From assembly GCF_042242105.1 (NCBI RefSeq), contig NC_092032.1, forward strand, positions 11,012,915 through 11,076,914: a stretch of 64,000 nt of DNA, written 5' to 3'. Made by a program: the position numbers and the translations under genes. Of the stretch, positions 24,841 to 29,133 are shown piece after piece. Origin of the DNA: Pempheris klunzingeri. Lineage: Eukaryota > Chordata > Actinopteri > Acropomatiformes > Pempheridae. The notes beneath the pieces were generated by a model. It saw only the letters and a list, made by a program, of their open reading frames with translations, did not search any database and was not told the origin of the DNA. How positions within the stretch are numbered: position 1 is the first letter of the stretch; each line of letters starts with the position of its first letter.

Positions 24841-27800
24841 ATGGCGGACGCAGAGTGAGTGTTTGCCTCTGTATTGAAATCTAAGCACATCCGCTGTTAA
24901 AATAACCATCTTTGTTAGTTTTTCATCCCAAATGGATTGTTCACTTTGTACACTTCATAATGCAACTAGTATTGCGAAGGATTGTGATTCTTACTGTTGT
25001 TTGGGTTACTTTGAGGAGACCTGTGTAGCCGTCGTAGTACAACATGGCTGTCTCTCCAGCCTTCGTGCACTCTAGAAGTAGTTGGTTTTTGTACTTAAAT
25101 GGAAAGCAAAGTAGAAATACTATTATGCGAATATATCGTCTACTTAAATGCTACTGTTCTTTTCTTAGTGAGACTGGCTTCCGTTCAAAATTGTTACTCC
25201 CAGTATGGAAGCCGGTAAACGACAGGCTAGGAAGCTAGCAGCTATCAGCGGCGACGAGAGATTTCAATTAATTAATTATGGGAGGATAATCGATAGTGGC
25301 AATGTGTTTACAATATGGAACTGAAGTTTTGTATCACTCACAGAAAAAAGGTTCCCGCGGTCCCTGAGAGCCTTTTGAAAAGGCGAAAGGCCTTCGCCAC
25401 CATGAAGGCCATGCGTGTCAAGAAGATGCTGGCCGAAAAAAAGGTTCGTTGCATGCTTGTGTGATGGCCCGTTAAAAGGAGAACTGGATGGACACTACTT
25501 AGGCTCTGTTACTTTTGTACTGAATGACTGACTTCTTCGTGTGTTCTCAGGCCCGTAAAGTGACCAGGAAACTGATCTACAAGAGGGCTGAGAAGTACCA
25601 CAAGGAGTACAGGCAGATGTACAGGCGTGAAATCCGCATGAGTCGCACTGCTCGCAAGGTGGGAAACTACTATGTGCCAGCTGAGCCTAAACTGGCATTT
25701 GTCATCAGGATCAGAGGGTGAGTGACCACACAATGGGACTGAACTTTCCTACTTGTCAAACAAAGCCACATCAGTAGCATTTACATGGATTCAGACACTA
25801 AAGGAGGTTATGTTTAGTCTAAGAGTCAAACAGCTATTCATGTTCCTGCTTACAGTATCCTATGCCGGTCTACTTACTGGTAGAGAATGCTCTCTCCATC
25901 CATTTATTTTGCCTTGAGGGAGATCATCCAATAATGTCTAAGCTTGGTTAACATAACAATCCATGTAAATGTACTTGAGTGAACTTGTTTTGTCTGTAAA
26001 TGCTTTAAGTGTGTGTGGTTGATGATGCACACTCTTTCCCCGACTGATCGACTATGGAGATACAGATATGCAAACTAAGCCAAATATTTCTGAAACCACA
26101 ATCAATAGAACCAATGAGAGAGCAGCATGCCAATGCTAACCTTTTAAGCTAATCATTCTATGCATTTGTCTTCCAGTATCAATGGTGTCAGCCCCAAGGT
26201 CCGCAAAGTTCTGCAGCTTCTCCGTCTGCGTCAGATCTTCAATGGTGTGTTCGTCAAGCTGAACAAGGCCTCAATCAACATGCTCAGGATTGCTGAGCCT
26301 TACATCGCTTGGGGGTAAGACTGTTATTGCTATAAACATGATGTTGACCTGAGCCAAGAGTAACCTAAAAAGTGCATATTCCTATTAAAGTCCACAGCAA
26401 AGCAGAACAAATATAAAATGGTTCTGTTGAGTACCTAAAGTAACACCTATTAATGTTTTATCTCTGGAATGTGGTTAATGATGCTGAACTTTTTTCCCCA
26501 TCTTATCGACCATGGTGAATACTGACTGAAACTAAGCCAGTTTGTCTGAAACCACATTCCTTGATAGTAATAGGCATTAGATGTTGTGCAGTATTTACAC
26601 ATCTGAATCTTCTTTAGATTCAAATAGTGAGTAGTTGTACAATGTTCTTGGAGAAACAGTTTAACAAGTACTGGAACATTACTCTAGTTGGAGATGAGCC
26701 ACACTGATGGCACTCTAGATATCTTTTGTTGTGTTCCTATTTTTAAATGAGTCATCTCAACCCTGAGAAAATTATGACCTGATATTTAATGCACTTCATG
26801 CTGCTTGTCTTGGTTGTTACCTTGACTTAAAATGTTAGGGGGAAAAGTAATGTTAACCAATTTACATAAAAATGGACCTAATGTCAACTGTAATTGTAGG
26901 AAGTGAAGGCATGGTGAGACAAAGGTATCGCTTTAATGGTTTGTTGTGAGTAACACGGTGAATGTTTCTGAAATGTTTGACACTGAGTAGTGCTGTATGA
27001 AATTACCTGACCTTCACTGAAAACAAAGCTTAATAGTGTTATAGATGTGCACATTGCTTTGTACGTGAGTACCCAGTCACCCATAGAGCTGTGAAAACTG
27101 CTTTACTGCAGTCATGTGGTGCCCACAGTGGGGTTGCTGGTGCAAGCTTAAAGGAGTGCATATGGTGTGTAATATGAAATATAGTCATTGTCAATTTATC
27201 ATTGACTGTTCATCCTATTGTAGCCGAGGGTTGAGTTAGATACTTTAGACAATTTATAAAGGTAATTTGTGATAAAGGACTGGAATACATTGCGCTTTCA
27301 CTGCTTTAAGAAAATAATCTGCAGTCCCAGCCCGGGTCACTTGTGTCCACTCCAGATGTTCAGTGCTTGTTTTTGCATAACCGTCTGAAACCTCAAGACT
27401 CAAACCATATCTATCCTGATCTGAGGCTGGTTAAACACTAGAGTGCAGTTAGATGTACAACATTTCAATGGCAGCATGGGGAGCATGTCCAACTAAGTGG
27501 TGGAACTTCATAAATTCAGCAAATATCCTTTTAATTTTGTGTAGCTCATTGTTTCCCAATCCCGGTCCAGGGGGCCCCTGACTTCCATGTTTTGGAGGTT
27601 TCCCTGCCCCAACACAACTGACTCAAATGATCAGCTTGTTATTGAGCTCTGCAGCTGCCTGATAATGACCCATTCATTTGAATCAGGTGTATTGGAGCAG
27701 GGAAACATCTAAAACATGCAGGGCAGTGGGCCTCCAGGACCAGGATTGGGATCTGCTGGCGTAGCTGATCAGCAACGCTTCACTGTGCTGTGAGGTGGAC

Positions 27801-28987
27801 CACAACATCAGGCTTATCATTTATAGTTGCTCATCTGCTGAAATCTGCCACTTCACTGCTCTCTGGGAGTTGAAATCTTAAGGCATATGGTCTCTCTGGT
27901 CACAGCCCAATGACTGCTATCAGAACAGATGATTTGCCGTTGACTTTTGACAGTAGACATTACCCAAAGTGCCACATGTTTTGAGGTGATTTTTATTGAG
28001 TTTAACGGGTGATAAACGCATCTTTAAATGAATTCAGTGGAACTCTCAAAACATGTGGCTACTTAAGATCGATGCTCTCATCTTTAATTTTGCCTCAAAG
28101 CAAAATCAAAACAGTCATTTTTAATTTAGGTTGTCCATTTGGAAGTCTGTTATAACACTAATACATAATGCTTGAAGGATATAACGCATGTAAATCTTAA
28201 TTGTCGTTGTGGACTACATTTGAGCTTATTTCATAACCTTTATGACCTGTGATTCCCCCAGATACCCCAACCTGAAGTCTGTGCGTGAGCTCATCTACAA
28301 ACGTGGCCATGGCAGGATGAGGAAACAGCGCATTGCCCTCACAGACAACGCTCTGGTGGAGAAGGCCCTCGGTATGGAAACCGTTAACTTTTTTTTTTCT
28401 GTCTTGCTGCTACAAAGCATGCAATTTTCAAAGCAAAGTTACAACATAATGTGATCACAGCACAGTGCCACATGTGGTTAATGATGCACACTTTTTTCCC
28501 CGTCTTATCGACCATGGTGAAAAAATACTGAACTAAGCCAGTTGTGTCTGAAACCACGTGCTAGTCTAACAGTGACTACAGTTAGGATGTGTATCATTTG
28601 TCATCAATGGCAGAATTTTATATAACCTTGTCAGACTTGTGTAGTTTATTGGAACTTAAAGTTACAATGTGTGCTTAAGCCTGGTCGACTTGCATTATGA
28701 CTTGACAGTTACACACACACTAAAGTTGTGAGCTTTAAACGGCTAAACTTATTAAGCATGTTGCTCTTTGATCCGCAGGCAAATATGGCATCATCTGCGT
28801 TGAGGATCTCATCCATGAGATTTTCACAGTTGGAAAGAACTTCAAGCCCGCCAACAACTTCCTGTGGCCCTTCAAGCTGTCTTCACCCCGCGGTGGTATG
28901 AACAAGAAGACCACACACTTTGTGGAGGGAGGAGATGCTGGCAACAGGGAGGATCAGATCAACAGAATGATCAGGAGGATGAACTAA
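24841..28987 (+). CDS. rpl7: 60S ribosomal protein L7 (uL30), complete
   Basis: RpL7 is a component of the large cytosolic ribosomal subunit. Coding exons are 24841-24854, 25344-25443, 25551-25717, 26177-26314, 28262-28371 and 28779-28987. All junctions are GT-AG with consistent phase and give 245 aa (human 248). Recognisable blocks include KKVPAVPES near the N-terminus, [57 protein letters not shown], the [14 protein letters not shown] segment and the end INRMIRRMN. The short first exon (14 nt) directly after a TOP tract is typical of ribosomal protein genes. A final 3'UTR exon begins at 29517, followed by AATAAA at 29541. Introns 3 to 6 each carry one related box C/D snoRNA, so the gene is also a snoRNA host. 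Confidence 0.98.
26014..26100 (+). ncRNA. box C/D snoRNA, copy 1 (rpl7 intron 3)
   Basis: An 87-nt unit bounded by TGTGGTT and AACCACA, which pair as a 7-bp terminal stem. Inside are box C (GATGATGC), a C/T-rich element TCTTTCCCCG, box D' (CTGA), a C'-like ATGGAGA and box D (CTGA) just before the 3' stem. The element before D' is complementary over 10 nt to the conserved large-subunit rRNA sequence CGGGGAAAGA. The D'+5 rule places the methylated base on the third G. It lies wholly inside an intron, as animal C/D snoRNAs do. The sequence shows the boxes and stem; expression is inferred. Confidence 0.82.
26470..26556 (+). ncRNA. box C/D snoRNA, copy 2 (rpl7 intron 4)
   Basis: Paralogue of the intron 3 snoRNA, 87 nt. 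It has the same TGTGGTT/AACCACA stem, box C AATGATGC, guide TTTTTTCCCC, D' CTTA, C' ATGGTGA and terminal D box CTGA. The guide pairs with GGGGAAAGAAG of large-subunit rRNA with one G-U wobble and points to the same G as copy 1. It starts about 155 nt after the intron's 5' splice site. Confidence 0.82.
27547..27758. mobile_element. hAT-type MITE (non-autonomous, palindromic)
   Basis: A 212-bp imperfect palindrome in rpl7 intron 4. Left arm features (CCCAATCCCGGTCC, CATGTTTTGGAGGTTTCCCTG, ACTCAAATGA) recur as reverse complements on the right (GGACCAGGATTGGG, AGGGAAACATCTAAAACATG, TCATTTGAATC). Flanks GTGTAGCT (27539-27546) and GCGTAGCT (27759-27766) match at 7 of 8 positions, as expected for an aged 8-bp target duplication. 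Ends start CA and finish TG. Eight-bp duplications point to the hAT superfamily. It has no coding capacity. The superfamily is inferred, the structure is seen. Confidence 0.75.
27971..28059. repeat. perfect 15-bp inverted repeat (hairpin) in rpl7 intron 4
   Basis: GCCACATGTTTTGAG at 27971-27985 is repeated exactly as its reverse complement at 28045-28059, with a 59-nt loop. No C/D or H/ACA boxes fit it. It could be a short MITE or a structured intronic RNA. Confidence 0.7.
28473..28558 (+). ncRNA. box C/D snoRNA, copy 3 (rpl7 intron 5)
   Basis: Paralogue of copies 1 and 2, 86 nt. The stem is TGTGGTT with AACCACG, extended outward (CACA-TGTGG with CCACGTG), so the one change is absorbed. Box C ATGATGC, guide CTTTTTTCCCCG, D' CTTA, C' ATGGTGA and D CTGA are present. 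The guide pairs with CGGGGAAAGAAG over 12 nt with one wobble, the longest complementarity in the set together with copy 4. Confidence 0.82.
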
Positions 28988-29044
28988 AGGTATGGTGAGT
29001 TGTAGGATCTTTGCAGGTCACTTAAGTATACACAGCTCATTAGG

Positions 29045-29133
29045 TGTGGTTAGTGATGCATATTCTTTTTTCCCCATCTTATCGACTATGGTGAAAACGA
29101 GCTGAAATTAAGCCAAATATGACTGAAACCACA
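29045..29133 (+). ncRNA. box C/D snoRNA, copy 4 (rpl7 intron 6)
   Basis: Fourth paralogue, 89 nt, in the last intron, which separates the stop-codon exon from the 3'UTR exon. The stem is TGTGGTT/AACCACA, box C GTGATGC, guide TCTTTTTTCCCC, D' CTTA, C' ATGGTGA and D CTGA. The guide pairs with GGGGAAAGAAGA of large-subunit rRNA with one wobble. Confidence 0.82.

Follow-up and report, generated by a model that had tools for sequence, protein, structure and literature searches.

Predicted SNORD12 guide RNAs in four consecutive introns of rpl7 in the fish Pempheris klunzingeri, and a possible origin for ZFAS1

Introduction

What do introns 3 to 6 of the ribosomal protein gene rpl7 (uL30) encode in the fish Pempheris klunzingeri, and how did this gene come to carry it? 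The stretch of DNA that we analysed, hereafter the window, comprises 64,000 nucleotides (nt) of the forward strand (GCF_042242105.1, NC_092032.1, 11,012,915-11,076,914). A first-pass annotation, made from the sequence alone, had placed one box C/D small nucleolar RNA (snoRNA) in each of these four introns, had described the four as paralogues, and had supposed that they might form a new or fish-specific family. Our results indicate that the four units are very probably paralogous genes of the known family SNORD12, predicted to guide methylation of a single G in large-subunit (LSU) ribosomal RNA (rRNA). The host gene is the unusual part, and it bears on the origin of the human long non-coding RNA (lncRNA) ZFAS1. 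Papers are cited below by PMC number.

Results

The host gene and the four units are located in the window as follows.

24841..29570, + strand: rpl7 (uL30), the host gene, from its start codon; the end at 29570 is approximate
24841-24854, 25344-25443, 25551-25717, 26177-26314, 28262-28371 and 28779-28987, + strand: rpl7 coding exons
26014..26100, + strand: SNORD12-like unit 1, 87 nt, intron 3; box C 26022-26028, D' 26044-26047 (CTGA), C' 26054-26060, D 26090-26093
26470..26556, + strand: SNORD12 unit 2, 87 nt, intron 4; box C 26478-26484, D' 26502-26505 (CTTA), C' 26512-26518, D 26546-26549
28473..28558, + strand: SNORD12 unit 3, 86 nt, intron 5; box C 28481-28487, D' 28504-28507 (CTTA), C' 28514-28520, D 28548-28551
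28990..29516, + strand: intron 6, an intron of the 3' untranslated region (UTR) that contains unit 4 and starts 2 nt past the stop codon
29045..29133, + strand: SNORD12 unit 4, 89 nt, intron 6 (3' UTR); box C 29053-29059, D' 29078-29081 (CTTA), C' 29088-29094, D 29123-29126

The four units were thus found where the first-pass annotation had put them, and their lengths agree with the 86-89 nt that it gave. A 7-bp terminal stem with the 5' arm TGTGGTT, together with boxes C, D', C' and D, is present in all four. The stem had been described as TGTGGTT/AACCACA throughout; this holds for the 5' arm, while in the intron-5 unit the 3' arm reads AACCACG, which makes the outermost pair G-U. Boxes D, D' and C' are as annotated: box D is CTGA in every unit, D' is CTTA in three and CTGA in one, and C' is ATGGTGA in three and ATGGAGA in one. 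With the exception of the final base of box C, to which we return, each unit therefore has the terminal stem, boxes C and D, and inner C'/D' of a box C/D snoRNA.

We compared the units with one another and with the introns around them. Unit 1 is identical to units 2, 3 and 4 at 71/91, 71/89 and 70/90 aligned columns, and the remaining pairs, among units 2-4, at 78/89, 76/90 and 72/89. When the four whole introns were searched against each other with blastn, matches at E < 0.1 comprised the units plus a poly-T tract common to introns 5 and 6 (E 0.001 and 0.004), and nothing else; the other inter-intron pieces listed had E >= 0.18. Of 12 shuffle tests on the 60-nt flanks, one (the 5' flank of intron 5 against that of intron 6) was reached by 1/200 shuffles, and the other 11 by 8-128/200. 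Apart from the poly-T tract and this single flank test, the claim that the flanking sequence is unrelated stood, and duplication of whole introns is ruled out on that ground. Random placement of four units in the six introns, weighted by length, would put one each in four consecutive introns with a probability of ~0.03. These comparisons support the view that the units are box C/D snoRNAs and mutual paralogues, apparently kept while their introns diverged.

A search of the window with the Rfam model RF00581 (SNORD12; gathering score 43 bits) gave 63.4 bits for unit 2 (E 2.9e-11), 61.0 for unit 3 (1.4e-10) and 56.5 for unit 4 (2.3e-9), so that all three pass the gathering score. The proposed new or fish-specific family was accordingly abandoned. 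In the whole 646-Mb assembly, the same model at E 0.001 found these four places and no other, with 57 of 59,070 first-look candidates scored, so that the search is not exhaustive. Control searches of 14 genomes gave 1 match, in Sulfolobus acidocaldarius, under the cut-off. A DNA search of the assembly with unit 2 as query recovered units 2, 3 and 4 only; a DNA search would therefore miss copies that have diverged as far as unit 1, although the RF00581 search did recover unit 1. Resemblance by chance, or derivation from a repeat element, might be suspected for units of just 86-89 nt, but we regard this as vanishingly improbable, in view of E values down to 2.9e-11, the presence of one unit per intron with its boxes retained, and the absence of further matches in the assembly search.

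SNORD12 is an ancient family, already named, and the snoRNAs themselves are ordinary. Its orthologues include human SNORD12/B/C, Schizosaccharomyces pombe snR107 and Saccharomyces cerevisiae snR190 (PMC11971394). Plant snoZ103 (RF00149) and Dictyostelium DdR2 (RF01569) have the blocks UUUCCCC, AUCGAC and AAGCCA in common with the fish units; the matches are weak, at 22.1-25.9 bits, far under the cut-offs of 44 and 80, and the fish units are not members. Membership in the snR107 family was likewise ruled out by a score under its cut-off. The main text of a Dictyostelium paper (PMC8817022) contains neither DdR2 nor SNORD12.

To identify the predicted target, we took as D' guide the 16 nt 5' of D' and scored it against LSU and small-subunit (SSU) rRNA, with 60 shuffled guides per unit, using a stand-in LSU sequence that is described below. 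The best place of the D' guide was LSU 2817-2832 in units 2, 3 and 4. All four guides pair with this site over 10-13 bp; that of unit 1 does so in an uninterrupted 10 bp, without the G-U pair present in the other three. In every unit the N+5 base is the third G of CGGGG, in the same register throughout.

This register matches that of a known site. The predicted site of yeast snR190 is G2395, with C2392 three bases before (PMC8536666). Human 28S Gm3899 (old number 3878), with methylation scores of 0.90 and 0.89, is assigned to SNORD12/12B (PMC5597630), and Wu et al. reported that silencing of SNORD12C reduced the mark at the Gm3878 site (PMC7243338). At the equivalent site in S. pombe, Gm2483 is guided by snR107 and is lost without snR107 or when ASE1 is mutated (PMC11971394); S. 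cerevisiae snR190 does not methylate (PMC11971394, PMC8536666). The fish units have the same predicted LSU target, in ASE1/box A, as snR107 and snR190, although the fungal genes adjoin U14, unlike the fish units in rpl7 (PMC11971394, PMC8536666). That all four guides share one place and one register, in agreement with a known site, is stronger evidence than the pairing score. On the best reading, the target G is equivalent to human 28S Gm3878 and yeast G2395, and the four units look like redundant guides for one ancient methylation.

We propose that each unit would be freed from a spliced rpl7 intron and that its RNA would assemble a C/D small nucleolar ribonucleoprotein (snoRNP) with Snu13/15.5K, Nop56, Nop58 and fibrillarin. 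The D' guide would then pair with CGGGGAAAGAAGA, an LSU stretch located at the root of domain V, and the snoRNP would direct 2'-O-methylation of the third G of that stretch, the counterpart of human 28S Gm3878. The four copies may serve as dosage or back-up for this one site. We predict from the sequence that the units are expressed in this fish, assemble snoRNPs and direct methylation.

Several observations weigh against this reading. Box C is RTGATGC in all four units, where the consensus is RUGAUGA, so that C replaces the usual final A. Unit 1 scores 37.5 bits with RF00581, under the gathering score, with an E of 4e-4 over the window; we describe it as SNORD12-like, a paralogue of the other three. 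For the D' guide of unit 1 the LSU site came third (26.0), behind SSU places at 26.5 and 26.0. Shuffled D' guides reached the best observed score anywhere in the two rRNAs in 6, 5, 1 and 1 of 60 cases for units 1-4, and because they do so, pairing alone is weak evidence. The number of candidates scored in the assembly search, 57 of 59,070, counts here too, as does the source of the rRNA: a 158-nt LSU query found no fish ribosomal DNA in the assembly (the only match besides a full LSU spanned 55 bases), and the LSU on which the pairing rests comes from contig C119, which, judged by eye, is apparently not the fish's. The target stretch is nearly invariant across eukaryotes, and for this reason the C119 sequence was used as a stand-in. 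C119 itself (L006 2259-8707, minus strand; L007) carries a full-length 18S-5.8S-28S unit with a divergent 18S in surroundings of 13% G+C, and is probably a contaminant or parasite.

The low score of unit 1, its absence from the three matches of the unit 2 DNA search, and the consideration that a single copy might be enough for one site would suit a situation in which only some units are active, with unit 1 (intron 3) and perhaps others being decaying copies. We consider this unlikely: the 7-bp stem of unit 1 is perfect, its D' and D boxes both read CTGA, and its guide pairs over an unbroken 10 bp without a G-U pair.

We also asked what the D guides might pair with. The sequence TAAGCC 5' of box D is identical in all four units, and the bases adjoining D are of two types, GCCAGUU in units 2 and 3 and GCCAAAUAU in units 1 and 4. 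The GCCAGUU-type guides pair with AACUGGCUU at LSU 3269-3285, over 10 bp in unit 2 and 12 bp in unit 3, G-U included. Shuffled D guides did as well in 14/60 cases for unit 2, which is chance level, and in 2/60 for unit 3, which is marginal; for units 1 and 4 the best places likewise do no better than chance (18/60 and 20/60). The motif common to units 2 and 3 and its pairings, together with the finding that snR190 acts as a chaperone via two antisense boxes (PMC8536666), raise the question of whether the D guides hold a second role, with units 2 and 3 also targeting AACUGGCUU or the units being snR190-like pre-60S chaperones. Such a role seems decidedly improbable: besides the shuffle counts, snR107 guided no methylation through its second element, and human second elements were termed relatively small (PMC11971394). 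The second antisense box of snR190 is 15 nt long, and its domain I region lies outside the top three targets of every fish D guide. The conserved AAGCC could pair with GGCUU ~20 bases upstream of the target and act as an accessory clamp, a proposal in line with an idea put forward for snR190 and cited in PMC8536666.

The host gene is intact. A search for exons bounded by GT and AG gave a single open solution, in which the six coding exons encode 245 amino acids, stop included. The gene model has six introns and a last exon from 29517, with AATAAA at 29541. The protein matched Pfam Ribosomal_L30_N and Ribosomal_L30, and its top match in the PDB is ribosomal protein L7 (E 1.1e-139). Against the assembly, its exons matched once, on contig C21; three further matches of 54-61% identity, on C18, belong to an L7-like gene. 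A pyrimidine tract, TTTCTCTTTCTC, lies just 5' of the start codon (24819-24830) and is compatible with a 5' terminal oligopyrimidine (5'TOP) start. Intron 4 also contains an imperfect inverted repeat (27554-27751), whose arms of 59 and 24 nt show 81% and 88% complementarity and which resembles a small transposable element.

The genes around rpl7 were located by the following markers.

22047..22757, - strand: open reading frame with the first coding exon of a gene that we take, by eye, to be rdh10; Pfam adh_short, E 8.2e-5, 22.6 bits, under the cut-off
40181..41827, + strand: two exons in open frames of what is presumably sbspon; Pfam TSP1_spondin E 5.3e-14 (over the cut-off), Somatomedin_B E 7.4e-4 (under)
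46288..46473, - strand: weak marker of a gene assumed in part to be terf1; Pfam TRF E 0.0064, under the cut-off, with an unrelated family at E 0.012
54910..57018, - strand: main exon of a Kv2 channel gene of kcnb2 type; Pfam Kv2channel E 1.1e-23; closest to the copy on C15

The gene order in the window is thus rdh10(-), rpl7(+), sbspon(+), terf1(-), kcnb2(-), which we take to be the order of human 8q21 reversed. Staufen matches lie on C21 at 10.98-10.99 Mb, upstream of rpl7 (stau2), and on C2 at 13.283 Mb (stau1), where a Kv2 match of kcnb1 type is 19 kb away; the kcnb1 and kcnb2 names of the fish Kv2 genes are our assumption. The four Kv2 genes pair as C2 with C2 and C21 with C15. The two kcnb1-type genes are ~1.9 Mb apart on C2 (11.41 and 13.30 Mb), and the kcnb2-type genes are on separate contigs (C21 and C15).

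The part of C2 around stau1 and kcnb1 (13.27-13.35 Mb) showed neither a SNORD12 nor a relic of rpl7 (best tblastn E 2.4). We also built a covariance model from the four units and ran it on the window and on 200 kb of C2, the latter as 20 stretches; it returned the four units and one match of 15.3 bits (E 1.3), which adjoins a GT repeat and in which no box C or D was seen. In the same 20 stretches (14 + 6), Rfam at its gathering cut-offs returned only K_chan_RES, a potassium channel editing signal. Within the stretches scanned with these two methods, a second fish SNORD12 site near the znfx1 or kcnb1 genes is ruled out. For other vertebrate DNA, two pattern scans of viral contigs gave 0 matches. 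The K_chan_RES matches fall in Kv2 coding exons (56224-56337, - strand; L026 3278-3391, - strand; L032 570-683, + strand) and probably reflect protein-coding similarity to a Kv1.1 model, not an editing site.

Discussion

The fish cluster has close counterparts in other vertebrates. Human SNORD12, SNORD12B and SNORD12C (SNORD106) sit in consecutive introns of ZFAS1 (PMC11971394). They resemble the fish units in the match to the whole RF00581 model, the boxes, the D' guide to the same G and the placing of copies in consecutive introns. The two sets differ in host (rpl7, not ZFAS1), in number (four copies in the fish, three in human) and in detail, the fish D' being CTTA or CTGA and the fish box C ending in C. 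Chicken GGgCD57, listed beside snR190 and HBII-99, has four isoforms with a 5' guide to 28S-G3388, and its host is the expressed sequence tag (EST) BU281079, introns 1, 2, 3 and 4 (PMC2653536). Likened by this description, it shares with the fish set the four isoforms, the four consecutive introns and the 5' guide to the equivalent 28S G, whereas the fish host introns are rpl7 introns 3-6. The suggestion that only fish have these snoRNAs in rpl7, or that mammals lost them from it, fits these published human and chicken hosts. We found no report placing SNORD12 in RPL7 in the literature available to us; such a placement may be on record already in the additional files of PMC3349704, which hold 1352 vertebrate C/D genes, or in fish genomes annotated automatically with Rfam. 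RPL7 is absent from the main text of PMC3349704, and the main text of a Xenopus methylation paper (PMC8797249) contains no SNORD12, 3878 or RPL7.

How did one cluster come to have two hosts? We take human ZFAS1 to lie between STAU1 and KCNB1. Because this would match the place of rpl7 between the paralogous STAU and KCNB genes, and because of the form of the cluster, we lean somewhat towards the view that the vertebrate genome duplications produced a second RPL7 gene, that ZFAS1 is its non-coding remnant, and that the two copies were resolved reciprocally. An ancestral RPL7 would already have carried the SNORD12 cluster, and both duplicates would have inherited it. On the line to mammals, one duplicate (ohnolog) would have lost its protein and kept the cluster, becoming ZFAS1, and the snoRNAs would have disappeared from RPL7; this fish would have retained both protein and snoRNAs in rpl7 and lost the ohnolog. 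This is the most economical history. An RPL7 origin would also fit the 5'TOP start of ZFAS1 variant 4 and its expression, which follows that of several ribosomal-protein genes (PMC5117590), though 5'TOP starts are common to snoRNA hosts generally (PMC10894041). We found no proposal of a shared origin of ZFAS1 and RPL7 in the literature available to us.

Other observations count against this ancestry. In this fish znfx1 lies ~4 Mb from stau1-kcnb1, so that the human neighbourhood is not simply conserved, and the human positions behind the argument are assumed. The chicken authors report that, besides a gas5-like one, they found no non-coding host (PMC2653536). The host EST BU281079 could even be an unnamed RPL7 transcript, which would weaken the ZFAS1 picture for birds.

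It is also possible, though we think it less likely, that ZFAS1 and rpl7 are independent hosts and that the cluster moved between unrelated genes by constrained drift. snoRNA genes do change hosts, and orthologous introns can acquire snoRNAs that are unrelated to one another (PMC3511168). Yeast RPL7A/RPL7B introns, like those of fish rpl7, hold a C/D snoRNA, snR39/snR59, which belongs to a different family with another site, A807 (PMC8476143), and the position of fungal snR107 and snR190 beside U14, not in RPL7, points the same way (PMC11971394). Yet the clusters occupy consecutive introns in all three animals (four in fish, four in chicken, three in human), and the fish and human hosts, with the human one placed as we assume, lie at matching places between STAU and KCNB paralogues, an interval that chance would have to hit.

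The ohnolog history, if true, would mean that selection on the introns, and not on the exons, turned a ribosomal-protein gene into an lncRNA. It might be a clear example of a protein-coding gene that survived genome duplication purely as a snoRNA carrier. Set beside the three copies in human ZFAS1 and the four in the chicken EST host, the four-copy SNORD12 cluster in rpl7 suggests for ZFAS1, an lncRNA much studied in cancer, an origin that can be tested, and this consequence merits a short comparative study.

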